DNA from: Ophryocystis elektroscirrha
Taxonomy: Eukaryota > Apicomplexa > Conoidasida > Neogregarinorida > Ophryocystidae
Length of the DNA: 26,017 nt
Assembly: GCA_030141585.1 (NCBI GenBank)
Contig: JAQIFP010000073.1
Location: forward strand, 1 to 26,017
Direction of reading: 5' to 3'
The notes beneath the pieces are model-generated. The model saw only the letters and a list, made by a program, of their open reading frames with translations, was not told the DNA's origin and searched no databases. Each line of letters opens with the position of its first letter. Position 1 is the stretch's first letter. A program made the position numbers and the translations under genes. Positions 413 to 24,720 of the stretch are shown one piece after another.

Positions 413-1152
413 ATGTTAGATTTATATGGGTCTCAATTTTTTGATACCTCGAGCGTTAATCAAAAGCGCCGCAGAGGAATAGAAGTGGATGAGTAAGGTT
501 GACTGAATCGATTGGTAGAAATGCAGAATGCATTGAATATCGAGTTATTTACGCATACAAACATCACAAAAATTATTATGATACCGGAATGAGTATATAT
601 CCCCACCAATTTAGCAATTTCGTAATACAAAAAATACACAGAGACCGTAAGGGAGATGAGTCTTTACTTGAGGTTTTTACCTACATAATTGATTACCATG
701 TATTTAGTGCTTTTATGTACTAGATGGTACAATATACAAAAGCCCTAGTTTTGGAGGCCTTATAAGACAACGTATCTTGAATTCGGTCCAAAATATGAGT
801 ACGCATATAATCTAATAACTGACGCATACAATTTAAATATATCCAAATAGTGTATTATGAAAAATAAAAAAAAAAAAAATTCACAGATTTTGTATTGGAC
901 GAAATAAATAATATTGCTTGTTGGTCTCTAATAGAAGGATACGCATGGGGAAAGAAAAAAAAAAAAGAAGAAGATAAGAATATCGAAGAATTATATAGTA
1001 CTAAAGATAATCCAGATATTAAACGTGTTTTGGAAGATTCTTATGCTTCGTTTGCAAACGCTGCTGTTAAGTAAGCTTTATATATATATAATACATTGTT
1101 TTCATATAGATTTAATGAATATGTAGCAGAAAATCCTATTTGGCGTCGTTGA
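413..1152 (+). CDS. MED6: Mediator complex subunit 6 (MED6)-like
   Basis: Five exons (413-492, 519-672, 708-798, 887-1070, 1110-1152) give 183 residues with consistent phase; introns are 26, 35, 88 and 39 nt. The family signature is seen as IEYRVIYAY (about 32-40), FVIQKIHR (61-68) and FYVLDGTIYKSPSFGGLIRQR (80-100), which matches the MED6 order of EY.., FVI+K..R, YYI.dG.IYq.P...vi..R. A lysine run follows at 131-135. MED6 is a head-module subunit of the RNA polymerase II Mediator and acts in the nucleus. The second intron was chosen because it restores the DGTIY segment; reading through gives a stop at 721-723. The N-terminus is short against MED6 from animals and fungi, so the true start may lie upstream. 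The stop is TGA, 16 nt from the end of the convergent next gene. Confidence 0.72.
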
Positions 1153-1168
1153 TATTTTTTTTTTTTTT

Positions 1169-1957
1169 TTATTCAACATTGTATTGCTGCTGGAAATTAT
1201 TTTGTGATTCCTCCTGGAAAAGAGGATATCTATAATCATCTGCTACTGTAGATTCTTGACCTATATCAGAGAGCAAAGATACCATAGCTCCTTGATCTAT
1301 AAGTTTACCATCTTCATCATACTGGGGTGGTGCTACTGTTTTTCCAGAATATATTGCAAAACATATAAGTCCCAAAAAACTAAAATAAAGTCCCACCATA
1401 ACATTAATGACACTAGTTTTAAGAGCAGTACCAACTATTCCTAAAAATATGTACAACCCTGCTTTTCCTATAGGTATAGTTAAAAAGCGAAACCATTCAT
1501 TTGTCCACGGCTTAAACTGATCTATACAGTCCCAATTTTTAGCTTCAACTATCATAATTATGACACCAAAAAAGCCCTGGAAAAGATGAAGAAGATATAT
1601 ACAGGGATTACGAAATAATAAAAAAAAATTCAAAGCAAAAATTGTGCTGGTCAGTGTTAAAAGGAATCCTCCCGTAAAACATAAAAACCGTACTAAGGAT
1701 GGGCCCTCTTTAGAAAGTGTTTTTTGCTTCTGCTGTATATATACTTGTTTGATAGCTGTAACAAATTGCTTGATTACTTCACTTAAACGCATTAATTTTG
1801 GTGATTTAACCGATTGATTTGTGTAATCTTCAAAAGGGGGGGGATACGACTCATCTAAAATGGCTGTTTCTGGGGCTGCAAATAAAGATGGGTCTTCGCC
1901 CCCATATCCTGTTTCGTCGTATGCTCTAGGCTGGTACGATGTTGTATATGCTGACAT
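1169..1957 (-). CDS. COPI-associated / TVP15-like membrane protein
   Basis: Intronless ORF of 262 residues starting at ATG 1957. A hydrophilic, proline- and acid-rich N-terminus (1-85) precedes four hydrophobic segments at roughly 90-113, 118-137, 158-180 and 183-203, then a polar tail. The arrangement of two paired TM hairpins, with RNP between TM1 and TM2 and the GKAGLYIFLGIVG segment (164-176) opening TM3, resembles the COPI-associated protein family (yeast Tvp15 relatives), which are small Golgi membrane proteins. SCAMP, also a four-TM family with an acidic N-terminus, was the other candidate; the NPF repeats usual in SCAMP are absent. The assignment rests on topology and pattern only. 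It is convergent with the MED6-like gene and divergent from the ankyrin gene. Confidence 0.6.
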   Translation of the reverse strand: MSAYTTSYQPRAYDETGYGGEDPSLFAAPETAILDESYPPPFEDYTNQSVKSPKLMRLSEVIKQFVTAIKQVYIQQKQKTLSKEGPSLVRFLCFTGGFLLTLTSTIFALNFFLLFRNPCIYLLHLFQGFFGVIIMIVEAKNWDCIDQFKPWTNEWFRFLTIPIGKAGLYIFLGIVGTALKTSVINVMVGLYFSFLGLICFAIYSGKTVAPPQYDEDGKLIDQGAMVSLLSDIGQESTVADDYRYPLFQEESQNNFQQQYNVE

Positions 1958-2446
1958 TTATTCTAACTTTTACTGTATATATATCAAATATACATAAAAT
2001 ATAACTTTACTTTGATTTTTCTGATTTTTAAGTGGCAAGCAGTGTGTTTGTAAGAAGTTTATAGAATTAACTTAGCAGGTGCAGCAAATCAACCAAATTC
2101 AGACATAAATTTGATAACAAATTTTTGGTTATGTATTTAATAATCTATGTGTATTTAATTAACGTTTTTTAACTTTTTCAAGTATTAAAAAATAGCTCTA
2201 TTACTGTAAATCACGCATGTCTGTGCAGCGAACCTGACAAGTATGCGATGAAAGTAGCAAACTTCATTCAAAAATAAATTCAAACAATTAAAGTTTAACA
2301 GTTTTGTTTTAATAAGGTAATTAAATGTTAACAACGTTTAAAAATTATTTTAATAAGTTTACGTTTTATTTTTAGTTTATTGTATGTCACTCGAATTATT
2401 TTACAAATTAATTAAATGGTTTTTTTTTAGAAATTAGTTTTAAGAC
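1958..2446. promoter_or_regulatory. Divergent intergenic spacer
   Basis: This 489-bp AT-rich spacer separates two divergent start codons, so it should hold both promoters and 5' UTRs. A pyrimidine tract ending in TTTTTTTTAG at 2421-2430 lies 17 nt before the ankyrin ATG and could be the acceptor of a 5' UTR intron. No ORF or RNA gene is seen. Confidence 0.4.
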
Positions 2447-3749
2447 ATGGATAAATCTTTTTCTTTGAGTTTAGAACAGAAATTAGAGCTAGAGAAAGTT
2501 ATTAAATCAGAAGATTCAAATGCTTTGCGATCAAAACTTGACTTAATTTCTTCCGAACAAAACCTTCCAATTTTGAAAGTAATTATATTTATATGCAATA
2601 CTTATTTTTGATAAATAAAATTGTTATTTTTTATTTGTGAGCAACGAGTTGTTGTATTACTATACTTAATTAAAAAAGCTCACATACTCGCATAAAATAA
2701 AATAATAGCACATTATACATGGCTTAATATTAACTTAATCATTTATGAATATATATAGGAATATTGTCTGAAGCTGCTCTATGAAATACAGCTATTTGAA
2801 AAATCCTTAGAATGTTATAAAGTACTTCTTCAATTCACTGGTTACCAAGGAACATATACAAATGAGCAGGGGCGCACTCTCTTGCATCTCGCAGCTTTTT
2901 ATGGAAATTTAAGTATTGTTGAAACTTTATTAGAAATGAAGGGTGTTGAAATTGATAAGCGGACTCCAGTAATAACTCAATTTATTGTCAATTTATATTA
3001 GAATGGTTGTACTGCTCTTTACTTGGCAACCCCTCGGGGTCACTTTAAAATATTGAATAAACTATTATGCAAAGGAGCTGAAGTTAACTGCGTTACCAAT
3101 GTAAGTATATTAAAAAATGTGTAAAATTAAAAACATGTATGGCTATATTTTTATAGTAACTATTATGTCTACATATGCATATATAGAAAACAATATATGC
3201 AAACTTTTAAATCTAATTAATTAAATGTATTATTTTTCTTATTATACAAGTATTCTGTCTTTAAATTGATTTGTTGCATTAATTATTCAGTAAATTAATA
3301 ATTGCCTACGATATATTATATGGATTATTAAATTTTATTATAGCGTCTATTTGAAAGTTAACTTTTTCTATGATCAATAAATAATTCAAATAATATATAG
3401 GAGTATTTTGTAACAACATTGAAATTTTATGCTGTAGTCTGGAAGTAGTCCGTTACTTGTAACTGCTCATTATGGATACATCTCGTGTGCAAACCTACTG
3501 TTGTCGTATGGAGCAGATGCGAATCACAGCAACTCTAATGGAATGACTTCTTTGCATATAGCAGCCGAACTTTGCCACTGGGACCTTTATGATTTGTTTT
3601 TACGTGAAGGAGGTGATAACAAGATACTCAATAAAAATGGTGAAACTCCCGATGATATAAGGACCAGAAAGTTAAATCTGCAAGGAAAAAAGGATGAAAA
3701 GTCTCGCCTTGCCAAAAAAGTATTGAAAAGCAGTATATATGTAGATTAA
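2447..3749 (+). CDS. Ankyrin-repeat protein
   Basis: Four exons (2447-2578, 2759-2968, 3002-3100, 3438-3749) encode 250 residues; introns are 180, 33 and 337 nt. After a 70-residue helical, acidic N-terminus come four ankyrin repeats at about 81-113, 115-147, 148-180 and 181-213, with recognisable cores GRTLLHLAA, GCTALYLAT, SSPLLVTAHYG and GMTSLHIAA, and a partial fifth (NGETPDDI, 214-221). The tail is lysine-rich. The 33-nt intron is needed: without it the frame ends in TAG at 2999-3001, just before the second repeat. Ankyrin repeats bind proteins; nothing here shows the partner. No other domain is visible. Confidence 0.88.
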
Positions 3750-3884
3750 TAACAATATCATTAATAAATACATGACAAATATGCATATAACAATATGTAA
3801 ATATAAATGCATCTGACTTACAGAATGTGACAGAAATATTTAGTATAAATCAGTTGAATTATTAACATGTAATTTTTCAAGAAA

Positions 3885-4139
3885 ATGAATATAAAGTTGC
3901 CTGGAATAAAATCACGAGAACAATCTAGAGAGCCAGCAAAAAAAACACTGTCACCCGTTATTGCATCAGATGAAAATTCTTTCTTCCCAAACAAAAAGCA
4001 AAATGTGCCCATCTCGCATGTTAGATCCACGTCGCCCGAGGGAAAAGTTATAGATTCCTCTAGTACAAGAAGTAGTCAATCAATACAACAAGTCCAACCT
4101 GAGCATTTATATACACAACCAATTATTTTTTCAAGATAG
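3885..4139 (+). CDS. Small serine-rich hypothetical protein
   Basis: Single ORF of 84 residues from a genuine ATG. It is rich in Ser, Gln, Pro and Lys, with no hydrophobic segment, and looks disordered. I do not recognise it. It lies 135 bp after the ankyrin gene on the same strand and 108 bp from the end of the convergent PH-like gene. Codon use resembles neighbouring exons, with more GC than the flanking DNA, which supports coding. It could be the last exon of a longer gene: TTTTTCAAG just before the ATG could act as an acceptor, but no upstream exon was found. Confidence 0.5.
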   Translation: MNIKLPGIKSREQSREPAKKTLSPVIASDENSFFPNKKQNVPISHVRSTSPEGKVIDSSSTRSSQSIQQVQPEHLYTQPIIFSR

Positions 4140-4247
4140 ATCCATTGAGTGTACGTAAACACGTTAATTTGTTTTTTTTATAGTAGGAATATATGATGAT
4201 TTTGAATACGTTTTCCATTTAACGCTAACAAAAATAATTTTCAAAAA

Positions 4248-4838
4248 TTATTGTTTGTATTCTAGATATTTATATAATAATTTGAATGCTATAGATAATC
4301 TCTCTGCTTCGGAATATGTATCAAATTTAATTGCTACTCGGCGATGTTCAAACTGTAAAACTACTAAATAAACCGTATTACTGTTTTTATCTTTACGCAA
4401 TTTTATGACAACCGTCGTTAATTCTAAAATAGGAAATTCATATTGTTTCCCACTATTTTGGCTTATAATTAGGTGTTTAAAATCAGATGTTAATTGACAG
4501 TGTATTAAAGAGTATTGCCTTTTATAGTTAAGTTCTGTTAAATGTACTCCACATACAGCTTCGCATAAAAAATATCGAAACAATTCGCTTAATAAAAATT
4601 CCCGAATATGTAACAGTGGTACTTCCTCAAATAAACTGTATGAATCCGTCTCTATAAAGTCTTCCAAAACTTTATTTGGTATAATTGTATCTTTGTATAC
4701 GCGTAGTTGATAAGAATTTAATTTCCGACACGGTGTCTCTAAGTTTTTTGGATTACAGTAACATGTGCTATCGTAAAGTCTTGGATCTCGAGTTATATGG
4801 CCGCATGAATTTCCATAAGAAGAACGCTCCGATAACAT
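4248..4838 (-). CDS. PH-like protein, possibly ISP-type
   Basis: Intronless ORF of 196 residues from ATG 4838. The N-terminal 40 residues carry six cysteines, then a short helical stretch. From about 95 on, beta-strand-like segments alternate (LIHCQLTSDFKHLII, YEFPILELTTVVIKL, TVYLVVLQFEHRRVAIKF) and end in a helix (YSEAERLSIAFKLLYKYL). This order, with an LVVLQF..RR.A..F core before a C-terminal helix, is what I expect of a pleckstrin-homology-like fold and recalls the IMC sub-compartment proteins (ISP) of apicomplexans. ISPs start with an acylated MGN/C motif, which is missing here, though the cysteine-rich N-terminus could still be palmitoylated. The ISP link is inference. Confidence 0.5.
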   Translation of the reverse strand: MLSERSSYGNSCGHITRDPRLYDSTCYCNPKNLETPCRKLNSYQLRVYKDTIIPNKVLEDFIETDSYSLFEEVPLLHIREFLLSELFRYFLCEAVCGVHLTELNYKRQYSLIHCQLTSDFKHLIISQNSGKQYEFPILELTTVVIKLRKDKNSNTVYLVVLQFEHRRVAIKFDTYSEAERLSIAFKLLYKYLEYKQ

Positions 4839-5358: not shown

Positions 5359-6664
5359 ATGGTATTAAGTAAAATTTTCATACAATTTAGATATATTTAT
5401 AAATATAAAACTATGGAAAGAGGCTTTCAACAACGATATAAATGCTTATCGTGCTTTATTAAATGAAAATCAGCTCTATATAAGGCCTTTATCGGCAGAT
5501 AGGTTGTTAACAGATACATGTAAAATTACTGCAGAACAAGATGCCATTAGGTAACTTTTTTTTTTTTTTTTTAAATTTCTCTAAGACATCTCTGTGAAGA
5601 ACGGCTTCAACTCTTACAGAAAAGAAGCGTCCAGTTCGCTCAAGTATATTAGAATAGCTTTTCATAGTTTTAGCGACGCCGTGACCGCATGCAACTTTCT
5701 AAAGATGAAAGAAATCATGCTCTTATGCTATTAGATAGCGATCCTGACCAAGTTGTTATTAATAAGTTCAATGTACAAATAACAGTGTAAGTTATAGTCG
5801 TCTAAATACAATTGTTGAATTTTAAATTCTTATAATATAATATATATAGTTAAACATCCCAGATGTAATTGCGCATCTTCATATAAAATATATATTTATT
5901 TTTATTGTATTTACATATTTAAATATTTTACTCTATATTTCTCAAAACTTTATATGAAACATTAGTGATATTGAATAAAGTTTTTTTTTTTTTTTTTTTT
6001 TTTTTATTTAACTTTTTATTAGCGAATGTTTGCAATGCCTCCGAAACTCCAATTGGTGCTCCGACGAAATTATCAATATTTACTTACAATTGTTAAATAA
6101 ACGAAATGAAGTCAGTTTACAGAATAAAGAACAGTAAGGATTATTGCAATCAAATCATAATAAATAATAATAGTAATAATAATAATAAATATAGTTACGT
6201 ATAATAAGCTTTATATGCAATGTTAACTTGTATACGTATTTTAAGATTTACAAGTTTCAAGTATTTGTACATGTGTTTAAAAAAAAAATGCTTATATGGA
6301 TGTGAATATTAATAATTTAATTAAATCGATGAATATACTATCAATTTATTAAGTAAACGTTTTCAATATATACATTAATATATTATAGTGCTATTTAACA
6401 GATTATGCATTCACATGTTATTATTTGTAATGCATGTTAATATACGAGCATGTATTTAGTATATCTTAAATTAATTATTAATACTTTATTATTAATAAAA
6501 ATTTATATACGTATTTAGGGTTCCCAAAATATATTGTTTTTCAACTTTTTTTTACACGAAACTTACTGATGAAGATGATACTGAACAATATACCTATGAA
6601 AATGTCCGAAGATGGACTTCAAGGTATGCAAATCATTATTTTTATATATATACATATTTAAATA

Positions 6665-6732
<68 letters not shown>

Positions 6733-7840: not shown

Positions 7841-8341
7841 TTTACCTGAAAAAATATATTCAAGAATTGATGACATACCAAAAGAATTGAGGAACAATCC
7901 TCTTATTGTTACACATAATGGCTTGTAACTTCCTTTTTGTTTTAAGTGTTATTAGATTTCACTGTGACGACGTAATGGCTGTAGCCTTACTTTTACAACT
8001 AGATGAATATAAAAACGCTAACGTTATCAGAACGCGTGATGTTTCTATTATTGTGAAAGCAACTATAGCGGTTGATGTTGGTTTACAGTATGGTAATAAA
8101 CCACACTAACTCCAAATTAATAATTACAATTATATTAATATTATATATATTTATAAGAGTATAAAACAATTTTTATTGTTGCAAAAGTGGATATATATTT
8201 ACTCAAAGATCCTATATTTTTCTAAATATACCAATCTTACATAAATCTGTCCGTTTACATTACTTATTATTCCCGTAAACATAAGTTTCTTAGATGCAAA
8301 TAATCTATTATAATAATTATTATTACTATTATAATTATTAT

Positions 8342-8379
<38 letters not shown>

Positions 8380-9824
8380 GTTGAGTAATTATATAATTTA
8401 TATATAATTTTATTTGTACAATAAAATATAACTGAGTTTGTATCCGTAAAAGTGTTGTATTAAATATATTTTTTTAAGATCCATCTACTTTAAAATTTGA
8501 TCATCATCAAAAAATGGAACCGGTTCACTTTAGCGATCAAACGGAAATACCTCTCAGTAGTGTTGGAATGGTTTATAAACATTTTGGAAAAACCTTGATC
8601 CATAGATTGTTTGGTGTTGACGAACCGTGGAAATTAGATTTTTGTTATTATTACATATATAAGGTAATGAAAAGAAACGTTGCATGAAATATACGGGTAA
8701 TTAGTTTAGGGTTACATACACCACATATGTACATTTGAGTAGTGTATATATATATGATTACTTCAATTGTATAATTGTATTAATATAAAGCCTATTTTTA
8801 AGGAAAAAATTTATGCAAATTACAAGATATGGCATATACATATATTAATGTCTCTGTACACTTGCTTGTAATTTTTTTGTAAGGTTTTTATCGAAGGCAT
8901 TGATGCCAACGATAATGGTGTAGCGCCATGTAATGATCGTCCAAAATATGAGCAATTTACTCTATACAAAAGGTTTCTACAAATCAAATTGAATGAATTC
9001 GTAGAGTGAGTCAGAGAAATGCACCTTGGAACTCACCAGATGTATATGATAGTACCGCTAGCTCGAGGTTTATAGGAGCGCTTCAAATGTGCATAAATGA
9101 ATTTTACGAGGTTGCCAAACACGTAGCAGAAGTAGATTTACCATATTTGGACCATGTCAAACAAGCCCTCAAAACTCTTAATACTTTTCACCCTTCAGGA
9201 CGTATACTTTATATCCAAAACTATACTCATTTCCTTCATGTAATTTAATATATACGCATTATATACTTAACAATCTTATAAATAAATTTATAATTAGTTT
9301 TGTAACAATCAATACTTTATTTATTTGTATTATTAAATATATAATAATTATATTAATACACAAGATTATCTAATATAAATTTACATATAATTATACCTAC
9401 AAATATAAATTCAATTACATATTATTATGGAGTTAATTATACCGTTAAATATAAATGTCAATTTACATATATAAACATACATCTATATATATAATAAATT
9501 TTTGATTTATTGTTAATAGCGAGTAATTTCGAAAGAAGAGATTGAAATACAAGGGACACCCGAGTTCGATTATTTACCAAAAAAAATACTAATTTATATA
9601 TATAACAGTACAAAACAAATATATTCTATGAGAATGAGGGAAATTGAAGATCATGAGTTTAAGACATATATAAATATTCCAAATAAATACCGACGTAAGA
9701 TTATATATGGACATTATGTATTTTTACTACTTATTACGTGTATATATATTCATACAAATAGTTGATATATAATTATAGCAATTATAAAACTAACAATAAA
9801 TTACTTAAAAGAAAAACTTTTTAT

Positions 9825-9858
<34 letters not shown>

Positions 9859-10039
9859 TTTTTTTTTGTATGCTAATTCACATATATTTGATTTTGTAGA
9901 ACTGAGTAAAGAAGAATATGCAGAATTAGGTCTTCCAGGCGTAACATTTGTACATGGAATGGGTTTTATAGCCAAATCAACAAATTTAAATTCTTTATTA
10001 CATCTAGCCGAACTTTCTATGAGAGATTACAAAGAATAA
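7818..10039 (+). CDS. MYG1: MYG1-like DHH-type hydrolase/exonuclease
   Basis: Seven exons (7818-7924, 7956-8092, 8479-8663, 8884-8972, 9005-9239, 9520-9694, 9900-10039) give 355 residues, the usual MYG1 length. Metal-site motifs are present: VTHNG (31-35), FHCDD (37-41), RTRD, VDVG and FDHHQ (88-92). Downstream lie SVGMVYKHFG, EGIDANDNGV, an APWNSP segment, HPSGRIL and LGLPGVTFVHGMGFIA, in family order. MYG1 proteins are metal-dependent 3'-5' RNA exonucleases or hydrolases reported in nucleus and mitochondria. Two introns are 31 and 32 nt; the 31-nt one joins THNG to FHCDD. The ATG at 7818 is forced: an in-frame TAG lies at 7809-7811. The usual VDVGG reads VDVGL here. Confidence 0.93.
8093..8478. 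other. Long intron 2 of MYG1-like gene
   Basis: A 386-nt intron inferred from the join of VDVGLQY to DPSTLKFDHHQ. It holds an (AT)n tract at about 8344-8373 and an interrupted AAT/ATT run. Without splicing the frame would stop at 8107-8109. No internal gene is seen. Confidence 0.85.
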
Positions 10040-10084: not shown

Positions 10085-10702
10085 TCAAACAGCTTCAGGA
10101 TTAGAAATAACATTTGAGGAAAAAATTTGAAGACCTAACGGTAGGTATCCTTTGGAGAACACACAACTTATAATTAACGATAAACCAATATAAAAACCAA
10201 TAGCGCCTGCTAAAACTAAAAATACATGTGCAGTAGTAATCAAAGCTTTAGCAGTGCTAAAAATACCTAATCCAAAACAAAAGCACCCCCCCGCAATGCA
10301 AATTAAACTAAAAGGAGAGCATAAATTTCCAGGTAACATGGGAATAAATAAAGCGGCATTAAATAAAGCAAATAAAGTCCATACAAAGTCTACATAATGT
10401 TCTGGTGCATTTGGTACATTTAAAACGGCATAGTTTGATAAAACATGGAATGAGGAAAAAGCGAACCACCAAGCCCCGAATAATAAAAATAAAAAAGAAC
10501 CCAATTCATCTTTTTCTTCTAGTAACATAAATCCAACTAAAAGTTGAGTTATTGCACCAAAAAATCCTCCAACCAAATATGTATGCAACGACTGATAATT
10601 CAATAATTCGGAAATACTAATCAGCGCTGTCGCTACTCCAAATGCGATCATGCCTAATCCAGATATGCATGGCTTTATGTCTTTAAACTCTGTTCTCATC
10701 AA
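10085..10702 (-). CDS. GPR1/FUN34/YaaH acetate-type transporter
   Basis: Intronless ORF of 205 residues starting MMRTEF at 10702. Six hydrophobic helices are visible at about 13-31, 42-62, 69-88, 104-121, 130-149 and 157-180. The GGFFGAITQLLVGFMLL segment (45-61) and the following FGAWWFAFS (75-83) match the family pattern of GG..Q...G followed by G.FW.s. Members move acetate, succinate or ammonium-linked substrates across membranes; bacterial SatP is the model. The diagnostic NPAPLGL motif before TM1 is replaced by KPCISGLG, so substrate choice may differ. It ends 45 bp from the convergent MYG1-like gene and may share promoter DNA only with its own strand. Confidence 0.82.
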   Translation of the reverse strand: MMRTEFKDIKPCISGLGMIAFGVATALISISELLNYQSLHTYLVGGFFGAITQLLVGFMLLEEKDELGSFLFLLFGAWWFAFSSFHVLSNYAVLNVPNAPEHYVDFVWTLFALFNAALFIPMLPGNLCSPFSLICIAGGCFCFGLGIFSTAKALITTAHVFLVLAGAIGFYIGLSLIISCVFSKGYLPLGLQIFSSNVISNPEAV

Positions 10703-10828
10703 ATTTTCAAAATAGGTACCCAGTAAATAAATTGCAGGTTCTTTTTAGTGGTTGACGGTAAATTAAGGTTTTTTGCTTAGGAATTATCAGAATTCATTAT
10801 AAAAACCAAAAAACTATATTATACATAC

Positions 10829-11130
10829 TCAAATATTATTACTGTCAGTCATACACTCATCAGACTCAGTAGACGACTCATCAAAATCACGCTTTTTTTT
10901 ATATATGCAGCATTCTAATAATTAAAAAAAAAAAACAGTAGCTTACTCTTAGATTTTTTTTTTTCTAAAAATTCATTGTCTAAAGTGTCTTCCTTCCATG
11001 TTACGTGCTTAGGATCTTGTTTTTTAGATGTAGTATCTTTTACTGATGGAGATTTAACTATAATCACTGAAGAAGTTTGAGGTTGTGTCACAACTTCTGT
11101 ATATGTAACTGTATGAGTTCTAATTTGCAT
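10829..11130 (-). CDS. Protein phosphatase 1 inhibitor-3 (PPP1R11/YPI1)
   Basis: Two exons (11130-10947, 10914-10829) with a 32-nt intron give 89 residues. The family signature is complete: a PP1-docking motif HVTW (42-45), then TLDNEFLEKK (49-58), then KKCCIYKKKRDFDESSTESD (61-80), where animal inhibitor-3 has KCCCIY followed by FGESSTESD. The intron cuts this signature and was placed by it. Inhibitor-3 binds and restrains the PP1 catalytic subunit in the nucleus; in fungi (Ypi1) it works with Sds22. The open frame extends upstream to 11265 as AT-rich, Phe/Tyr/Ile-rich sequence that looks like untranslated DNA, so I start at Met 11130. It lies 126 bp upstream of the transporter on the same strand. 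Confidence 0.88.
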
Positions 11131-11373: not shown

Positions 11374-14231
11374 TTACGTTTTCAAAAGTGCAGTGTTATT
11401 TTCTTCATTTTCTTCTGTTGTGTCGAAAATAGCGAGAATAGTTTCTACGGAAACACCTTTGTAGGAATCGCTTAATAAAAGGCGTATATTTTCATGAGAT
11501 GCTGATACATCATCACGGCTAATAATTTTTTTTTTTTTTCTTTTTTTTACCTTTTAGAAAGTTCTTCAGTAGGGGGAGCTTGTGTAGCACTAATTAAAGC
11601 ATCAAATGAAATTTTATGATGTCCGATTTGAGAGATCTTTTCGTGTAATAATTTCGCTTCAACATCACTCAAATGAAGATTGTTAATAATTGCTTTTATG
11701 AGATCTGAAAGCTAAAAAAATCAATGTTTAATGTTCAATCAATAATAAAAAGTACTACGAGTAAATATTTCGAGTTTCATTACAAAGATTGAGATTTACA
11801 ATTTTTTTTTAAAGTAATTAAAAGTTACTCACAAGTATTGTACGGTTTTTCTCAGATTTCAAATGAGGGTAAATATTATCAATTTGCATAGATGATTTTG
11901 ATGAAATTTGTTGAGCCATTACAGTCCATGCAGCTCTTCGCAGCATATTTCCCAGTGCAAAGCTTAAATAAAATAACATTAGTATATATATATATATATA
12001 TATATAATTATAGCAATAATTATAATTACAGATAATATCTGATTATTCAATGGTTTTTTATTAATATAATTGATAATTGCTATATATATATATATATATA
12101 TAAACATTATTGAATAAATGTAAATATATATAAATTTATATATATAAATAAATATTTAAATAAAAACATATTAATTGAAAAATTAATTGCTATATATATA
12201 TATATAATTATAGCAATNNNNNNNNNNNNNNNNNNNNNNNNNNNNNNNNNNNNNNNNNNNNNNNNNNNNNNNNNNNNNNNNNNNNNNNNNNNNNNNNNNN
12301 NNNNNNNNNNNNNNNNNGTTTTTTATTAATATAATTGATAATTGCTATATATATATAAACATTATTGAATAAATGTAAATATATATAAATTTATATATAT
12401 AAATAAATATTTAAATAAAAACATATTAATTGAAAAATTAATTGCTATATATATATATATAATTATAGCAATAATTATAATTACAGATAATATCTGATTA
12501 TATAATGGTTTTTTATTAATATAATTGATAATTGCTATATATATATAAACATTATTGAATAAATGTAAATATATATAAATTTATATATATAAATAAATAT
12601 TTAAATAAAAACATATTAATTGAAAAATTAATTGATATATATATATATATATATAATTATATATATAATTATAGCAATAATTATAATTACAGATAATATC
12701 TGATTATTCAATGGTTTTTTATTAATATAATTGATAATTGCTATATATATATATATAAACATTATTGAATAAATGTAAATATATATAAATTTATATATAT
12801 AAATAAATATTTAAATAAAAAAATATTAATTGAAACATTAATTGATATATATATATATATATATATACATATAAATTAGTATGGCTTATTATATATATAG
12901 ATATATAGAAATAAAAGTTTCATTTAATTTTTGATTATTTAATAGTTATAACTTAAAGTATTTAATAATATGTTATATACCTCTTCATAGATTTTAAAAC
13001 GGCAAGATCTATTCCATGGTCCACTTGGGTATTATCTATTCGCAACCATTCATGTTGAAGAGCTTCACTAGCTGATGGACGAAAATCGGGATTTTTTTGG
13101 AGTAAATAACGAATAAAAGATTTGGCAGATTCAGAGATTCCGTCCCAACGGGCTGCGGAGAAGTTAAACGCGCCTAATTTAGAATAGCTTCACTCGAATA
13201 ATACCTCTTTTAATACGGACAAGTATTTCATGGTCATATGACCCATTAAAAGGTGGAGAACCAGATAGAAGCATATATACAATAACACCAATAGACCAAA
13301 TATCACATTTTTCATGATAACAGCCATCCATAACTTCTGGACTAACATAATATACTGTTCCGTGCATAGCAGTCATTGGAACACCTGGATTAAAAATACG
13401 TGAAAATCCAAAATCAATCTACAAATTAATGAAATTAGCAAATATTTACAAGTTTTAAAGGGCTATCTGGACTTTCGTTAGCATACACCCAATTCTCCAG
13501 TCTGAAAACACTTTTTTTTTTCCTTTTTACTTCAAATCACGATGACAAATATGATGTTTATGACAGTAATCAATAGCGGCTAACATTTGACGTGTAACAT
13601 TGGCAGCATCCCGTTCACTGTACTTTTTTCGAGCTGCTAATCTTTGATATAGCTCGCCTCCTGTCAGTAAGGTAATTTTTTTTTTTTTTTTTTTTAAACC
13701 TGTACATAGTTCCATAACCAAATGAATAGCCTCAGGTGTTTTATAAACTTCTATTAATTTAGCAATATTAGGATGGTTCAACTTCAAATATATAGAGACC
13801 TTTTTAAATAATATTAACTGATAAAAAAATATTACTTCATTGTGGAGAACTGCAGCTTTTTTCGCAACTACGTTTTCTAGCGACAAAGTCTTTATAGCAA
13901 AACGTTCATGCGTTATTTTATGACTAGCCACCTGAACAGCACCCGAAACTCCTAAAAAAAAGGTATCAAATCAATTTCACAAATTCTGTATATATAATGC
14001 TAATCCATGTAGTTAAATTTATATTCATGAATTTGAGATTACGACTATTTGTTAAAATTTAAAAGAGTCTGTGAATATGTAGAATATAATTCTACAGTTA
14101 TAATAAATCATTACTATACATTCCTAAATACTCATATATAAACACATGTACATAAATATAGACATATATATACCAAAATACATATACATGCATATATATA
14201 TATATATGTTTATATATATAAATATATATCC

Positions 14232-14278
<47 letters not shown>

Positions 14279-14955
14279 GTTATATGTTTATATATATTTA
14301 TACATACTCTTATTTATTTATATATATATTTGTATATATGGATATATATTTAAATATATATATTTATGTATATATCCATATACATTTATATATAATTATA
14401 TATATATATATGGATGTATGTTTATATATATTTATATATATTCTTATTTATTTACATACATAAATATATATATTCATATAAATTTATATATGTTTATATA
14501 TATCTACATATATTTATACATAAGCTAACATATATGTCATATATTGGTGTATGTAAGATTACTTATTGTATAATAAACATTTATACAGTTATTTTTCCTA
14601 TGCATATATATATATGTATAGCTAAAATCCACGTAAAAAAGAACTTACCCGTGCCAAGAATTTCTTTGGATAAAGTATAGTTATCTTCAAAATCACTATA
14701 ATGCAATATACTGTTAGGCTCAGTTGGAGAAATTTTGGAGTTTTGTGACTGTCACTTTTGATATATTTTTTTTTTTATTACTATGAAGTTGGATTTTAGC
14801 GAAGAAGGCTGGTGAGAGGAGCAGCAGGAGTTATAATGGGATTTTTGTTTAGTTAAATTATTGTTTGAATTCTTTTTGGATATGTTGGAGTCAGAATCAG
14901 TTCGAGCAACTGATTGTCGACGGCGTCCAAATTTCATCCATACGAAACAACCCAT
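11374..14955 (-). CDS. CDPK-like kinase with degenerate EF-hands
   Basis: Eleven exons (14955-14782, 14748-14649, 13951-13836, 13799-13700, 13660-13531, 13501-13450, 13418-13205, 13173-12981, 11962-11833, 11711-11551, 11518-11374) give 504 residues in consistent phase. It begins MGCFVW, a likely N-myristoylation plus Cys3 palmitoylation site, then a basic/Ser-rich linker. Kinase motifs are intact: glycine loop GTGVSGAV (90-97), FAIK Lys112, Glu130, HRDLKLEN (203-210), DFG (226-228), GTVYYVSPE (244-252), then the CDPK-style NFS..W..IS..AK and HEWL. Residues 360-504 align with the CDPK activation domain, but the loops I expect to bind calcium (around [12 protein letters not shown] and [12 protein letters not shown]) lack the required Asp and Glu. 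Seven introns are 29-39 nt; two long ones (697 and 1018 nt) carry repeats. Confidence 0.9.
11963..12980 (-). repeat. Roughly 206-bp tandem repeat in kinase intron
   Basis: This intron of the CDPK-like gene is filled by about four copies of an AT-rich unit of about 206 bp. The marker GATAATATCTGAT recurs at 12031, 12486 and 12692. Each unit has TTAATTGCTATAT..., a (TA)n run and ...TTATAGCAATAATT, so it can fold into a long hairpin. The scaffold gap lies inside this array. Confidence 0.88.
12218..12317. other. Assembly gap, 100 N
   Basis: Exactly 100 N, a common placeholder for a gap of unknown size. It lies within the kinase intron array, directly after TATAGCAAT, the 3' arm of the unit's inverted repeat. 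The real array is probably longer. Confidence 0.98.
13952..14648 (-). repeat. Degenerate TATA/CATA satellite in kinase intron
   Basis: A 697-nt intron between the glycine-loop exon halves. From about 14140 to 14530 it is degenerate TATATA with CATATA and TGTATA variants. The Tyr/Ile-rich open frames on the + strand here are by-products of the repeat. Confidence 0.85.
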
Positions 14956-15362: not shown

Positions 15363-17065
15363 ATGACAGAAATACAAATTATAAAACAAAGATTTCCCAA
15401 TCTATGTGATAAAAACCAATTAGAAAGCTTACAGAGATGTATAGATGCTACGAACATATTATCTAAAAACTGTAAAAAACAAGTTTCAGAGTATGAGACC
15501 GTATTAAAAAATACCGGTTCTAAGTTGAAAATTAATCATCAATGTATGCATTGATAAGTACTTTAGTCTAATTTGATTGACTATGTGTATTGTAATTTAT
15601 CATAGCTCTAACGGATAAAGTAAAAGAAAAAGAAGCAAAAGCAAAAGAAGCAAAGGCCGCTTACAACAAATTGGCTTTAGAGTTAAAAGACTTGAAACAA
15701 AAAACCCGAATTCTCGAAAAAAACATAGAGGTATAAATAGAGTTCTCATACATTGTTTTAGGGATACGAAGATAAATTCAACCAATTAACTGCTTTGAAT
15801 AAAAAATATACTGATGAAATTTTATCTCATAATTCTTCGCGTCAAAAATTAGATAACGAATCTCAAAAAACTTCAAACCATTCTAGGTAGGTATTTTTTT
15901 ATCTTTTTTATATATTTTTCATCCTATATACTAAAATTTTTTTTGTATATATTACTATAGTTTGCAATTTGTTCTTTTGAAGCACAAATGCACATTTATA
16001 TACATAGATATATATATACATATGTATATAAGTGTATATGTATATTTGTATATATTTATATTTGTATATATTTATATTTGTATATATGTATATCTATATA
16101 AATTTATATTTGTACATATGTATATCTGTATATATGTATATAACTATATATGTATAAATGCATATATGTATATGCGTATTTCTGTATATATGCATATGTA
16201 CACATATATATATATATATGTGTATATATGTATATGTGCATATATGTATGTATGCATATATATATATATATATTTGTATGCATGTATATCTATATAAATT
16301 TATATTTGTACATATGTATATCTGTATATATGTATATAACTATATTTGTATAAATGCATATATGTATATGCGTATTTCTGTATATATGCATATGTACATA
16401 TATATATATATATGTGTATATATGTATATGTGCATATATGTATGTATGCATATATATATATATATATATATATATTTGTATGCATGTATATCTATATAAA
16501 TTTATATTTGTACATATGTATATTTGTATATATGTATAAATGCATATATGTATATGCGTATTTCTGTATATATGCATATGTGCATATATATATATTTGTA
16601 TGTATGTATATTTGTATGAATGTATATAAGTATATATGTGTGTAAATGAGCATAAATGTATATATGTATAAGCATAGATGCATACGTAGAGACTATAGAT
16701 GATATATTTGCTTATTTATGAATATATTCATATATGTGTGTATACATATATTTCAAAAAAAATTTTAAGCTTAATTTTGCATGTTTTAAAACAGAAAGGA
16801 TTTGCTCAAAAAAATGTTTGGAATTGAATGGCTAAATTGGCAAGAATCTGATAGCCCTATTATATATGTTGAGGCCAGTAAGCAGCACATATAGAAAATA
16901 TGTTTTTAAGGGTTTACTGACCCAAAATCTGACAATGAAGCATTCCAGCTTCCCATTACTAAATTTAATGCTCTTAAAGATCCTTCCGTAGCTCTTAAAG
17001 TTATTGAAAATATTGATTGGGTGTGGGCAGAAATTGAAAAGAGCGAGTTCAGTGAATCGTTATAG
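15363..17065 (+). CDS. Coiled-coil protein, possibly kinetochore Spc24/Spc25-like
   Basis: Five exons (15363-15543, 15606-15730, 15762-15886, 16795-16877, 16911-17065) give 222 residues; introns are 62, 31, 908 and 33 nt. Residues 60-145 form a coiled coil, with a [14 protein letters not shown] stretch and regular Leu spacing. The C-terminal part starts [16 protein letters not shown] and continues as strand-like segments ([20 protein letters not shown]) and an ending helix. A long N-terminal coil followed by a small domain opening with a GI/GL strand is how Spc24 and Spc25 of the Ndc80 complex are built, and the segment fits an RWD-like fold. Sequence identity is too low to be sure. It could equally be another small coiled-coil protein. 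Confidence 0.72.
15887..16794 (+). repeat. TATATG satellite with 200-bp higher-order units in intron
   Basis: This 908-nt intron splits the coiled-coil gene. From about 15990 to 16680 it is TATATGTA/TGTATA repeat. A longer unit is copied three times: CTATATAAATTTATATTTGTAC starts at 16094, 16290 and 16492, a spacing of 196 and 202 bp. Open frames of Tyr, Ile, Cys and His on both strands here come from the repeat and are not genes. Confidence 0.9.
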
Positions 17066-17646: not shown

Positions 17647-18137
17647 TTATGTTAAAAATACTTTACTTGTTTTTTCGGAAGTCCATAAGGGTAATCCAGG
17701 TGTATAATAATTAAAATGATCAGCTCCACTATATTATGTTATTATGAATATCGAGCGTACCTGACGGGAGATGAATACCATATTTGAGATTGTATATAAT
17801 GCTTATTAATAACTATAGTGCCTTTATTATTTGATAACTGAATTTCTAAAGTTTCGAAATCAATTAAATTCACATTCTCTACGAAATTGCACTGATCTAA
17901 CTGATCAAATAGCGCTTGTAACATTGAATTAGCATCAATCTGATATTTCATATTATATTTGCTAGGGAAAGTGTTTTCAACTTTTCCACTATTATTTGTC
18001 ACAACTGTACGAGTTCCGTAACTGATGTTATATGTATGAGAATGTAGATTTGGATATTTTGGCACATTTTTGAATAATTTGTGGTATAGACGACAAATCC
18101 CTAAATTATTTAATCTCTTAAATACCAGGATTGACAT
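17647..18137 (-). CDS. FXN: Frataxin (CyaY family)
   Basis: Two exons (18137-17761, 17728-17647) with a 32-nt intron give 152 residues. The frataxin core is clear: helix 1 (SMLQALFDQLDQ, 71-82), an acidic strand (ENVNLIDFETLEIQL), then GTIVINKHYIQSQIWYSSPV (106-125) and SGADHF (126-131), matching the family INKQ.P..QIW.SSP.SG. The intron separates SSPVS from GADHF; reading through gives RYARYS and a stop. Residues 1-29 (MSILVFKRLNNLG...) are basic and amphipathic, as expected for a mitochondrial presequence. Frataxin helps cysteine desulfurase in iron-sulfur cluster assembly in the matrix. The C-terminal helix is missing in this model; an 83-nt intron (17661-17579) leading to an exon ending at 17516 could supply it. 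Confidence 0.9.
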
Positions 18138-18512: not shown

Positions 18513-20441
18513 ATGGAAGATCAAAATAAACCTACAGATATAGCGGATGCTAATGTGATAAATGAAGCTAAATCTCCTGATGAAGAGACTATGAAGAACG
18601 AGCCAGTTTGTGAGAATGTCGATAAATTGACTGCTTTAGAAATGCTTCAATTATTGAAAGAGTATAAGGTATTTATTTTTTATTTTTTTTTTTTTTTTTT
18701 TTTTTAGAAACGTGAATTTTTATATATAGCAGAGATAACAAGTTTACAAAAAGAATTATTTATATTATCAAATGGCAATTATACAGCTACTGAAAGACCT
18801 GCAAACATTCCAGTGACACCATATTATCCTGTTCTAGATTTATGCCAAGTTGCACTATATGATCCAGCGATTAATTTAGAAATCAAAGCTTTAAGGAGTA
18901 AGTTATATGAACAAGCCATGGAGTTAAGGAAAACTCAGGATGAATTGAAAGCAGCTACATACACTTCAGAAAGGTAATATAAAAGTCATTAACGTACCTC
19001 ACAATGTATATAATCATTAAGTATATCATATTATTATTACATATCATTTACATGATTGCCAGTTGCATATATATCTATATATCCATTAGTATACTTATAT
19101 TTATTTATATATTTTTTTTTTTTTTTTTTTGTTTACGTATGTGTATATGCTTAAAGTTATTCAGTTGTTTTTAACTTAAACATGTATATATGTATTTCTT
19201 GTTAACTCAGTGTAATGGGGCGGCGTTTAATAAATAAGTGTAAGTCGTTACAAGAGGAAAATACAGATATTGGAAAGATGCTACTGGAAAACCAACTTCA
19301 ACCTTTACAAATACAAACCAATGTTTTAGAAAAGCAACTAGCTTTTTTCAAACAGCAACTTAAGTACTAAATTTTATGGTTTTATTATCAATTACAGACT
19401 GTTGCATGAAATGAATGCTGATCTTGACAATGAAAATGAAAGACTTACCCGTCAAGTTCAAGAATTAACAGTACTATACAAGGTATATTGATTATTATAA
19501 TTAAATCAATTATTATATTATATTGTAATATAACAACAATATATATTTTTTACGAAAATATAGCAAGATTCTAGTAAAGATATTAAGATATATATCTTTA
19601 TATATATATCCATATTTCCGTGTAATAATAAAACATATATATATGTTTATATTAATATGTATATATATATGCATATATAAATATATATATATATGTATAT
19701 ATGTACATGTAAATATGTATATATAGATATGTATATATAGATATGTATATATAGATATGTATATATAGATATGTATATATAGATATGTATATATAGATAT
19801 GTATATATAGATATGTTTATATAGATATGTATATATAGATATGTATATATGGATATGTATATATAAATATGTATATATAGATATGTATATATGGATATGT
19901 AGATATAGATATGTATATATAGATATGTATATATAGATATGCATATATAGATATGTATATATAGATATGTATATATAGATATGTTTATGTAAATATAAAT
20001 ATGCATATATAAATATGTATATATAAGTATGTATATGTATATGTAAATGTGTACAAATATGTAAACATAAAAATGTATTTATAAATTTATATATTTATAT
20101 CTGTGTGTAGTTATATAAATGTAATAGATATATGTTTAGCACCTTTTTTTTTATTTCAATTTTACTGTTAGAATGTACAACAAGAACGCGATGCTGCAAA
20201 TGCAAAATTAGAAAAATTAGTCGAGAAAAAGCCGGCAACAAAAGAAAGGCAAAGTAGCTCATATCGCAGGTCAAGTAGTCGAGATAGTCATAAAAATAGA
20301 AAAAGTGGCGGTGATTCATCGCGGCATCACAATAAAAGCAGTCCCAAAAGAGAGAATTCTCGTAGAAGCAATCGTCATACAAGTAGAAGGGATATTGATT
20401 TTATTAAAAGGAATGATAAACGGAAAAGTTCAGATATGTGA
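18513..20441 (+). CDS. WTAP: WTAP/FIP37-like m6A writer subunit
   Basis: Five exons (18513-18668, 18708-18973, 19211-19363, 19398-19482, 20172-20441) give 309 residues; introns are 39, 237, 34 and 689 nt. The WTAP core is recognisable: [16 protein letters not shown] (103-118), [15 protein letters not shown] (127-141), [20 protein letters not shown] (144-163), [12 protein letters not shown], then a coiled coil ending near 238; human WTAP has DPAINL, EL.AWKFTPDS, GKKLM.KC..L..EN.ELG in the same order. WTAP/FIP37/Mum2 holds the METTL3-METTL14 RNA adenosine methyltransferase in nuclear speckles. The last 70 residues are rich in RS, SR and SSS with His and Lys, a splicing-factor-like tail. The first intron is nearly all T. 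The gene is divergent from frataxin. Confidence 0.87.
19483..20171 (+). repeat. 14-bp AGATATGTATATAT satellite in WTAP intron
   Basis: This 689-nt intron carries, from about 19715 to 20000, a 14-bp unit AGATATGTATATAT in more than 15 copies with few changes, flanked by degenerate AT. Long Ile/Tyr/His open frames on the minus strand are produced by the repeat (42 nt is three units) and are not genes. Confidence 0.92.
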
Positions 20442-20585
20442 AATTAATAGACCTCTTTATTTACTTCCAACTTTTATAAAAAGAACTATTAAACTTCAAA
20501 TTTATATACATATATATAAACCATAATTTATTGGCATTACTGCAATTATTCTTATTCGAGTAAAAAAAAAAACAAAAAGAAAAAA

Positions 20586-23500
20586 CTATACGTTTTCGAC
20601 CAAGTAATATATTCTTTGGTAAATAGTATTTCCTTTATTATTGATCGTTGGTTCCATAGCAGTTTTTACTAAATTGTAGAACTCTAAACTATTTAATAAA
20701 AATTGGATTTCGCATATGTCTAATAACTGAAATTCTTGATCTAGCTAACTCAAAATGAGACGTTTATTTTTTTACCAAGTTTACTGTACAGCCTCCGTAA
20801 TATTTGATCATTAAATATCGTATTCGACTTAACAAAATTATTAGAAAAGTTACATTTATGTTTCCATCCAACTGCAGCCATCTAATCGGAAAAAAAGCAT
20901 TCTCACAGAAAATTTATACTTAGTTGTAATTACCAATAAATTACTATTTATATATAAAGTTTGTTCTGAGAATCTCATCATATTATTTAAATTTATATAA
21001 TAATGATATAGATTGTTTCATTAATAGGGAATATACTCATATTGCACGAAATATAATAAAATTTACACCTATCTAACATATAAAGCAATTTTATATTATA
21101 TTTATATGAACATATAGTTTGCACATAATTTAAATGTTCAAGCGTATATAATATATACATAAACATATTTGTGGATTATATATAAGTATATATAGATATA
21201 TACAGATATGTATAATTAATTACAGAAATATATAAATATATATAGATATGTATAAATTTATATAAATATATATAGATATGCATTGATATATACAATTATA
21301 TATAAATATATATAGATATATATAATTATATATAGATATATATAAATATATATAGATATATATAAATATATATAGATATATATAAATATATATAGATATA
21401 TATAAATATATATAGATATATATAAATATATATAAATATATATAGATATATATAGATATATCCAGACATATATAAATATATATAGATATATATAAATATA
21501 TAGATATATATAGATATATTTAAGTATATATATAGGTATATATGAATGTTTAAATATATACGTGTATAAATTTACATTTATATATACATGTTTGTAATTT
21601 TGTATGTATATAATATATATATGACTTGAGTAAAATATTTCACATATAGTAAATAATTTCATTAAGTATCTAGCATATATGTACTTATATCTTTTAGATA
21701 TAATCATAAAATGCATATATTATTTATTATTAATAATAATCTATGCTAGTTGGTGATAACCGAAGACATGTATATACATATACGAATTATATATAAATGT
21801 AACCATGTAATACTATGTATAATTTGCTATAATTACATTAATAAATATGATTATACAAATTATATACATTTTTGAATTTATAATTCAACGGACTTTTTAA
21901 TTTTACATAATTATAGAATATATAAATTAATTTGGGCTGAATTATTAAATAATAGAAATATTAATAATAGAAATACTTACGTTACGGGAGGAACCTTGAG
22001 AGGAGTAAATGAGGTAATTTCAGCGTTAATAAGAATATCCGGGCTGTGGAATTGGTATAGAAAAAAGCTAAATATAAACCGTATTGCAACTACATACAAA
22101 TCCGAAACGGAAAAATATGAAATAATAAATTTGAGAGCTTCGTCAGAAGAATATTTTTTATAATGGTATATTAAGTAAAATATATCAACTTGGAATTTTG
22201 GCCCCCATAAGGCCCATACAGTGTTAGGAATAGTATATGGACAGTCTCCCACATTATTGAAGCTCATATTTATAAAATGATTTCTTTCTTGGAAAGGTAA
22301 ATCTTCCATAAATTTATTTTTATATTTATTAATATATTTGGTAGGGTGCTGTATTTCTATAGAGAAAGAATGAGCAGCGGAAGGTATCATGAACAGCCAA
22401 ACATCTCCTTGGGGTATGCGAACTATACATTTCAAGCTTTCCAGCACGAATATGTAAATGCAGAAAATACTGAAGTTTTGGGTATAAAATTTTTGCGAAA
22501 ACTGACTATAAAGATGTGGCATTTGAATACCTTGAGGATGATGCTTTAAAATCAAGGCATATATATACATTAACTCATCAAATTTGATACTTTCTAAGCT
22601 TAGCTGATCCGCAAATAGATTTTGATAAACATATGTTATTAATTCACACATATTAGTTTTGAAAATATCTGTGAATATATCATTATTCTTATTAACAATA
22701 TGAGTCCATATATATTGTAAGGATGGTGTAATTGGGACATACGATAAACTTATATACATAGTTCTTATATCCTCAAATATTTGGGACAGACTACTGGAAT
22801 CATTTATATTAATGTCTGCATTTTTTATAATAATATTTAAGAGCACGCTGTGAACATCTGCAATATTACAATTATATTTAAATTCCGTATAATCATTGTA
22901 TACGGGAGTCAGAGAATGAGGATCCATATATATCATAGGTTTATTATATATTTCTGAATGCATTGCATGGGAAATAAAAGGATTGGAGAAGTTCTTAGGA
23001 TCTAATAAATCAAAATCTGCTACAAAACCAAATTTTTTAGTAATAAATTCTGCTTTTGGCAAAACTCCAAGGTAGCTTTTATTTTTGTCAACAGAAACTT
23101 TTAAGGGACTTATACGTAAATCAACTACATCAATATTTTCCGAATTTTTTAAATGCTTATTTATGCCTCCTTCACCAATTTTAGATATATTAGATATCGA
23201 ATTATCACTGGATAATGATTCATTACTCGAAATGTCAGAATAATCAAAAAAAGAGACAGTCTCTCTATTCTCAATTTTCCATGTGGGTTCCACTGAACTG
23301 CAATCATCAAAAGCAATGTATTTGATCAAATTATTCAGTTTGTATTGGGAGCTTAAATCATAGTCACGATTTATCACTTCAGTCGTGAAATCTGTCGAAA
23401 ACATAAACGATTTATAAATGCTCAGTAATTCTGAGGGTTTTCCAAATAGAGCTCGTCTTGCAAATCTGTTTAAAGTGTAGCGGCAAGACTCTTGCAACGG

Positions 23501-23640
23501 AAATTTTACTCCTTGTGCGTTTTTGTTTTTAACTATCAGACCCTATAACCAATAAAAATTAAATTTAACTATAACCATATCTCTATATTACGGACATAAT
23601 AATTTTGTTTTGCAAAGCTATATAAATATATATATAATAT

Positions 23641-23674
<34 letters not shown>

Positions 23675-24720
23675 ATATATTATATATATAATATAATATA
23701 ATATTATATATATATATATATATACACAAAATTATGTATGAATTGTAAGGATACACACTATCATAACTATATATATTCAAAAATATATATAAATAATGGG
23801 AATAATCATTATCGAAACTATATATATATATATATGCAAATATACGTATGAACAGTAAGGATAAACGCTTTCATAAATAAATATGGAGACATATGTTTAA
23901 ACAGTAGGTATGTACATCACTTTAAATATATATATGTATGGATATATGTTAGTCGATGTGTATTATTTATGCCTATGCATTAGTGTGTAAAATTTGAGGA
24001 CAATTTTTGAATATAGTTTATTATAGAGTACTTTCAATATTAGAACGTTCCATATAGCCTGGACATCTTCGAATTTGAGAGATTTGATGGAATTTGAAGC
24101 CCATTCCGCAGAATAGCAAAAAAAAGATGCCAGTAATATTATCTAAAGAAAAATTATTAGCAAATTATTAGAAAAATTAGCAATCCACGTACATTGAAAT
24201 GAGTATGGTACGTTTTGTATTCTTTTAAAAACCCAGTTGTGTTAGATAAAGGAAACATTAATTGCTGAAGCTCACAATTATCAAGATATTGATTAAGTTC
24301 AACATTCGGTTTCTTGCGGAAATGTAGAAAAACTCTTTTCGTATAATGGTAATATGGGGAAGTAAGTAATGTTCTAAAGATATCGTGCACTTCCACTGGG
24401 GAACTTATATTCGGAAAAGGCACTAATGTAAAAAGAAACTGTAAAGTTAATAATAATCAATTTTTGTTCTATTACTTCCCATATTGTATGCGAACTTTGT
24501 GGAATCTTCAATACTTTGAGTCCAAAAGTCAATTTTTTACTATGCATCATTGAGTTAGCGTTTATAGGAATATTTAGCTTTGCATGACTGAGTTAAGTGC
24601 TTACAAACACACAACAACTTACTAATAAGATATCCACAACGATTCTGCTACCAAAGATAATTTTATAAATTTATACACATCTTCTCTTGCCATAGGCTTT
24701 TGCAAATATACCGATATGTT
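20586..24720 (-). CDS. Large helical protein of unknown function
   Basis: Seven exons (24720-24623, 24539-24476, 24438-24193, 24142-24032, 23542-21981, 20881-20776, 20744-20586) join in phase to about 781 residues. I do not recognise the family. The sequence is mostly helical with many aromatic residues, a Ser/Asn-rich acidic loop (about 245-280), and no signal peptide or clear TM. Its hydrophobic helical stretches recall the helical-repeat organelle RNA-binding proteins of apicomplexans, but I see no RAP domain, so this is only a guess. The first in-frame Met is at 24693 (MAREDVYKF); the frame stays open upstream, so more N-terminal sequence may exist. The join to the last two exons crosses a 1099-nt repeat-bearing intron and is less sure than the rest. 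The final intron is 31 nt. Confidence 0.62.
20882..21980 (-). repeat. 20-bp GATATATATAAATATATATA satellite in long intron
   Basis: This inferred 1099-nt intron starts with the strong donor GTAAGT at 21980. Its middle (about 21170-21540) is a degenerate 20-bp satellite of GATATATATAAATATATATA. Unique AT-rich sequence flanks the array on both sides. Ile/Tyr-rich open frames in it are not genes. Confidence 0.8.
23543..24031 (-). other. Intron with (AT)n tracts
   Basis: A 489-nt intron of the large helical-protein gene. It carries (AT)n palindromic stretches at about 23628-23724 and two related segments, CGTATGAACAGTAAGGATAAACGC and ATGTATGAATTGTAAGGATACACAC type, near 23735 and 23845, which suggests a small internal duplication. 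Confidence 0.7.

Follow-up and report, generated by a model that had tools for sequence, protein, structure and literature searches.

Predicted introns of about 28-42 nt, with no adenine fixed before the acceptor, in an apparently gregarine-like apicomplexan genome

Among the systems described so far, the closest to the one presented here is that of the gregarines Porospora cf. gigantea A and B, whose genomes (~9 Mb, 54% GC) are reported, in the passages of PMC9250747 drawn upon here, to contain short introns of 25-30 nt, with a mode of 28 nt, which account for 71-72% of the introns and occur alongside longer ones. According to the same passages, an adenine located 6 bp upstream of the acceptor is strongly conserved in the small introns, whose consensus is unlike that of the other Porospora introns and which were likened to the 20 bp introns of Babesia microti. 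Short introns are also described, in the relevant parts of the respective papers, in the ciliates Paramecium and Nyctotherus, where they are exclusively around 25 bp (PMC5014332), in the heterotrichs, at 15-16 bp (PMC10245619), and in humans, where the short introns need Smu1 and RED (PMC6692369). Here, we present a narrow class of predicted short introns found in the contig JAQIFP010000073.1 (hereafter the window, i.e., the whole stretch of 26,017 nt that was analysed, which is the entire contig C89) and in other contigs of the same eukaryotic genome, which has 8.0 Mb in 118 contigs.

The reading that best accounts for these segments, to which we give a probability of roughly 0.93, is that they would be introns of the ordinary major (U2-type) spliceosomal kind which, in a gregarine-like apicomplexan, have been reduced almost to the smallest size that a spliceosome can handle, at ~28-42 nt with a mode of 31 nt. 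The observations behind it are the GT-AG ends, the extended GTAA and YAG signals, the junctions fixed by homology, and the presence in the genome of U6, U1, part of U4 and matches to SF1 and RED.

The class was compared with chance in a main sample formed by the window and C1:1-200000 (a stretch of another contig, C1), on both strands, and in a second sample of 13 loci on other contigs, 44.5 kb in total. The gene finder was given a dinucleotide pair as its only splice signal, a flat length prior of 15-150 nt and a coding model that never saw the predicted introns; an earlier version without partial genes had been dropped because it chained spurious long introns, as had a coding-score cut of 8, which left zero introns. 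With GT-AG, 206 introns were called in the main sample, 77 of them at 30-39 nt, against 8, 16, 13, 3, 13, 16, 12, 12, 7, 32 and 13 in the same range for 11 decoy pairs, the highest being TT-AG, and the GT-AG lengths were spread evenly over the three residues modulo 3 (32/32/31 at 20-45 nt). In total score, the TT-AG decoy came out slightly above GT-AG (5674.8 vs 5641.9), with a length peak less than half as high.

Under a stricter filter on the coding flanks, the untouched coding model gave 47 GT-AG introns at 28-41 nt against 5, 15, 11 and 11 for four decoys, and a retrained model, which was built on predicted genes and had thus already met the predicted short introns as noncoding, gave 81 against 9, 17, 14 and 10. 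No GT-AG excess was found at 20-27 nt with either the untouched model (2 vs 3-5 in the decoys) or the retrained one (0 vs 4-7), and both strict runs were without a clear excess at 42-700 nt, where GT-AG was the highest pair at 60-99 nt (25 vs 9-21 untouched, 27 vs 16-26 retrained). On the other contigs, the retrained model returned 11 GT-AG introns against 0-4 for the decoys. When the splice sites were trained on the calls of 28-39 nt, under a flat length prior and in a run made without decoys, 192 introns of 26-41 nt were obtained, of which 149 fall at 29-35 nt, with the mode at 31 nt (35 introns) and a sharp lower edge. The tight short-intron class is thus confirmed as real.

Support for the individual junctions comes from seven spliced proteins of contig C1 that were aligned to solved structures, namely PRPP synthetase, DHX15/Prp43, hexokinase, PRMT1, spermidine synthase, aspartyl-tRNA synthetase and TYW1. 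Within the aligned stretches, 43 of the 46 predicted junctions were clean, i.e., free of gaps within ~3 residues as judged by eye, and the three others (33, 62 and 342 nt) were dropped; by length, the clean junctions comprise 36 at 29-42 nt (median 33.5 nt), three at 43-52 nt and four at 146-223 nt. Three further segments with GT...AG ends had been retained by the models and appear in the proteins as inserts, one of 27 nt in PRMT1 and two of 33 nt in DHX15; all are stop-free multiples of three, and their removal restores RDKYLK, ILTITAML and AKSRFAH. The 27-nt segment of PRMT1 does look like an intron on this alignment, and a 39-nt version of one of the DHX15 segments was rejected, given that the 33-nt version matches the homologue exactly.

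The hexokinase also suggests what the organism may be. Its closest relatives are three contig proteins with 55-56% identity, followed by an entry from a fly genome, which is probably a contaminant, and then by Porospora, Lankesteria, Gregarina, Blabericola and other gregarines. On these relatives, the organism is referred to here as a gregarine-like apicomplexan, by the similarity of this one protein rather than by a tree.

Across 45 well-scored genes of C1, with 101.5 kb of coding sequence, the models hold 203 short and 103 longer introns, or 2.0 short introns per kb, a density which may be too high because the model carries a length prior. The models of some genes have no introns at all, such as those at C1:20173-22635, 1182-2882, 38533-40080 and 91396-93219, which were named by reading as elongation factor 2, a sugar transporter, an importin-alpha-like protein and an RNA-binding protein, in contrast with the 23 introns of an SMC1-like gene and the 12 of the aspartyl-tRNA synthetase gene. 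On the same contig, the cysteine-rich repeats at C1:60199-62451 bear a possible resemblance to oocyst wall proteins.

The splice signals were read from the 192 introns, whose sites were trained on the short class. The donor is GTAA, with A in 91% and 69% of the introns at the two bases after GT, and the acceptor is YAG, while a G at intron position +5 is found in only 24%. A fixed adenine at -6 was not found, given that A occupies this position in 34% of the 192 introns, against a background of 35%; in the 36 introns verified by homology, A occurs 9 times at -6, 14 at -7, 14 at -8 and 19 at -9, and this last peak is not repeated in the larger set (37%). With regard to the branch-point motifs, which the sequence-only reading had proposed to inspect, YTNAY is no commoner than in shuffled sequences (131 of 185 introns vs 130), while TTGAT is mildly enriched (25/185 introns vs 14/280 intergenic decoys, and 13/81 vs 4.2 when shuffled), at scattered distances. 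A motif found by expectation-maximisation (EM; AATTT..) was set aside as a branch signal, as it lies modestly above the shuffles and has no preferred position. An AG inside the intron occurs in 36% of the 185 introns against 59% of the 280 intergenic decoys, and the A+T content tells the 36 verified introns apart from a set of 165 coding decoys, at an area under the curve (AUC) of 0.88 (0.80 for the T content by itself), a separation that is partly circular because composition had served to call the introns in the first place, ahead of their confirmation by homology.

The genome contains a full-length U6 snRNA (103 bits), a U1 snRNA (74.8 bits) that starts AAACUUACCUGG and has the usual donor-pairing ACUUACCUG near its 5' end, and a partial U4 snRNA (47.2 bits) that is cut by the edge of the locus, as well as protein matches to RED_N and to SF1-HH (SF1). 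The short introns may be recognised by machinery that pairs both of their ends across the intron (intron definition), through GTAA, YAG and an A/T-rich interior rather than through a strong or fixed branch sequence, and RED, together with SMU1, may assist by analogy with the human short introns. A deletion bias would shorten the introns until they reach a steric floor at close to 28 nt, and the minority of longer introns would be of the same kind, left unshortened.

A number of points weigh against this reading. All the introns were called from genomic DNA; the seven proteins were hand-picked out of 84 models for being conserved and, for the most part, rich in introns, and the models of their genes were built with a length prior that favours short introns. 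On the other contigs, a small sample, the untouched model gave only 9 GT-AG introns at 28-39 nt against 1-7 in eight decoys (GT-CA 7, TT-AG 6). A branch motif of useful strength was not found by the k-mer enrichment, EM or YTNAY tests, and the Pfam model of SF3b1 gave no match, in a search that is unable to show absence. Two Rfam searches and three short patterns did not find a U2 snRNA in the 8.0 Mb genome, with a best Rfam score of 16.4 bits (E 1.9), which may reflect either a gap in the assembly or a U2 that has diverged. The sole match to a U2 pattern, on contig C39, was rejected, as its sequence looks coding and does not match U2. It is conceivable, albeit distinctly unlikely, that the genome holds thousands of introns of 28-42 nt (by extrapolation) in which the branch adenine has no set position and a branch sequence is all but absent, perhaps tied to a U2 that has changed in its branch-pairing region and is missed by standard searches, so that recognition would depend on A/T-richness and the intron ends.

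In the window itself, the sequence-only reading had placed 26 introns of 22-39 nt, 19 of them at 29-35 nt, in ten genes. Our own placement comprises 20 introns of 29-39 nt, likewise in ten genes, with 15 at 29-35 nt; 15 of the 20 were predicted by a gene model whose length prior favours short introns, and the other five (673-707, 5551-5585, 5644-5673, 7925-7955 and 13661-13699) were placed from earlier coordinates, by motif or by eye. The shortest of the earlier calls, at 22-27 nt, are doubtful, since this range has no excess over the decoys and the removal of the one 22-nt candidate tried in MED6 (592-613) breaks the frame. The five segments that had been singled out as introns (673-707, 2969-3001, 10915-10946, 13502-13530 and 18669-18707) all begin with GT and end with AG, at 35, 33, 32, 29 and 39 nt, and the protein motifs said to be restored by splicing were all recovered, as given below.

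On the forward strand, the intron at 673-707 restores CFYVLDGTIYKSP in MED6, and the spliced protein matches the Med6 profile with 46 bits, while the shorter unspliced reading has no match; a 39-nt intron at 1071-1109 lies in a separate partial gene model that is probably the 3' part of the same gene. The intron at 2969-3001 belongs to an ankyrin-repeat gene, whose match to Ank_2 is of 89.5 bits spliced, while the higher-scoring of two single open segments reaches 34.5. A gene named as Ulp1/SENP-like by reading the sequence, without a family search, has two introns placed by eye, one of 35 nt with a long T run (5551-5585) and one of 30 nt (5644-5673), which together leave one open frame when taken out; at the first of these, the gene model picked the same donor with a distant acceptor (5551-6022). 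In MYG1, introns of 31 nt (7925-7955, restoring THNGLFHCDD) and 32 nt (8973-9004) are found beside long ones of 386 nt (8093-8478), 220 nt (8664-8883), 280 nt (9240-9519) and 205 nt (9695-9899), which bears out the claim that the tight short class coexists with long introns in the same genes, and the Pfam match rises from 35.6 bits for one exon to 251 bits spliced (positions 2-318 of 318). Further along the same strand are a 33-nt intron from the gene model in a predicted gene (16878-16910) and the two introns of WTAP, of 39 nt with a T run (18669-18707) and 34 nt (19364-19397), whose Pfam match is of 113 bits spliced against 33.8 for a single open segment. The WTAP gene, at 18513-20441, suggests that an m6A methylation complex is present.

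On the reverse strand, the 32-nt intron at 10915-10946 restores KKCCIYKKK in protein phosphatase inhibitor 3 (PPI_Ypi1; 68.5 bits spliced vs 31.5 for a single open segment), and a kinase gene holds several others. According to the gene model, this gene has introns of 32 nt (A-rich, 11519-11550), 31 nt (13174-13204), 31 nt (13419-13449) and, in the N-terminal part, 33 nt (14749-14781), to which are added those of 29 nt (13502-13530, at HRDL^KLEN, restoring HRDLKLEN), 39 nt (13661-13699, at MELCTG^GELY, restoring MELCTGGELY) and 36 nt (13800-13835), and a long one of 697 nt inside the kinase domain (13952-14648). The 39-nt intron is a stop-free multiple of three with a 20-base A run, which the gene model leaves in and translates as a lysine run, and it was still retained in the model that scored 219 bits over positions 4-263 of 263. 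Another intron of this gene (1018 nt, 11963-12980) appears by eye to consist of long A/T-rich units arrayed in tandem and is interrupted at 12218-12317 by 100 N of assembly gap. The remaining reverse-strand introns are those of frataxin (32 nt, 17729-17760; 51.8 bits spliced vs 35.7 for a single open segment) and of a predicted gene (37 nt, 24439-24475, from the gene model).

As for other features of the window, a membrane protein of the GPR1/FUN34/YaaH type is found at 10085-10744 on the reverse strand, with a weak Pfam match below the cut-off, and long microsatellite arrays of the GTATATAT/ATAGATAT type were seen by eye at 15975-16700, 19640-20030 and 21180-21530, in long introns or intergenic DNA. 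Both ends of the contig (1-127 and 25875-26017) consist of short tandem repeats, of the ATATAGT and ACTATATGGACTATAT types, and are probably where the assembly stopped.

The sequence-only reading had taken the mixture of sizes to point to two modes of intron definition or two intron ages, and an unlikely alternative along these lines is that the long introns are old and recognised differently, while the short class was gained later en masse. The presence of both sizes within one gene would fit this, as would the very uneven load of short introns, which are absent from 10 of the 45 C1 genes and show a dispersion 4.4 times that of a Poisson distribution (in the model with the length prior). A comparison of nine kinase genes, at alignment columns held by at least six of them, found a single exactly shared intron site, at which both introns are long (534 and 297 nt), as would also fit; a single site is, however, too few, and in two further pairs the introns are offset by just one column, both being long in one pair (697 and 228 nt) and short in the other (30 and 29 nt), so that two ages are not shown. 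The length distribution bears out the short mode, in C1:1-200000 and the window, but not a long class above the background: as the calls of 42-700 nt have no clear excess, the long set in this range is mostly background, and the homology-backed long introns (in MYG1, the kinase and four in C1 genes) are a minority of the verified ones. The donor difference between the classes is not significant (P = 0.059, with this long set), the donor and acceptor profiles overlap, and the long introns are inseparable from the background in the unbiased runs, which leaves the two modes of definition without support. The sharp length mode and the hard lower edge could also be produced if the spliceosome read the length of the intron itself as a ruler, which is very unlikely, given that GTAA...YAG pairs in open frames are as common at non-3n spacings of 29-38 nt as at 45-119 nt; 83 kb of open frames hold 48 pairs at the shorter spacing, a ratio of 0.99 with no sign of avoidance, so pairs at intron spacing are not selected against.

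There is next to no chance that homopolymer errors of sequencing or assembly, which would shift the frame and mimic short introns, account for the class in general. Several of the window introns do contain runs of A or T, and runs of at least 8 occur in 12 of 185 short introns against 4.1 in shuffles, but the other 173 have no such run, and the GT and AG ends at a sharp length are not reproduced by the decoys. Moreover, 9 of the 36 homology-verified short introns are multiples of three in length, so it was not a frameshift that prompted their call. Practically as negligible is the possibility that the segments are removed from the DNA, in the manner of the internal eliminated sequences of ciliates, or skipped by the ribosome; they are short, A/T-rich, and mostly contain a stop or shift the frame, as such segments would, but the GT-AG boundaries, the splice-type flanks, the presence of U1 and U6, and the apicomplexan kinship all favour splicing.

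Ordinary spliceosomal introns near the minimum size thus remain the preferred reading, and it is with other such classes that they are best compared, within the limits of the passages of each source drawn upon here. The apicomplexan Babesia microti also has very short introns, of 20 bp, in which a putative branch adenine lies close to the acceptor (PMC9250747), while the parasites Mikrocytos and Paramikrocytos have numerous extremely short introns, which differ in being of 16-17 nt only, with a conserved sequence and a reduced spliceosome, in contrast with the 28-42 nt and the near absence of an internal consensus found here (PMC10245619). The very short introns of the ciliates Stentor (PMC9505925) and Paramecium and Nyctotherus (PMC5014332) are also shorter than those found here and belong to an unrelated lineage, and the likeness to the human short introns (PMC6692369) lies in the match to RED_N, the role of RED here being proposed by analogy. 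Gene finders that set the minimum intron size higher would misread genomes of this sort, and stop-free introns that keep the frame could enter the databases as false protein inserts.

The sequence-only reading named gregarines in passing, without singling out Porospora, which presents nearly the same phenomenon. In the titles and abstracts, mostly of the top-ranked matches, of the open-licence literature on short, apicomplexan or gregarine introns and on gregarine assemblies, no other gregarine with such a class was found. Both organisms would be gregarines with a small genome and a narrow short class accompanied by longer introns, which suggests that a near-minimal class is not peculiar to Porospora among the gregarines. 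They differ in the adenine at -6 (34% here, on a background of 35%), the lengths (28-42 nt) and the GC content (25% for the window, 29% for C1). As far as the cited parts of the literature go, then, the near-minimal class of Porospora was already known, and what appears to be new is a class with no adenine fixed before the acceptor, which suggests that such introns do not depend for their existence on a branch adenine at a fixed position, as reported in Porospora, and which thereby provides a natural contrast through which to ask what determines how short an intron the spliceosome can remove.

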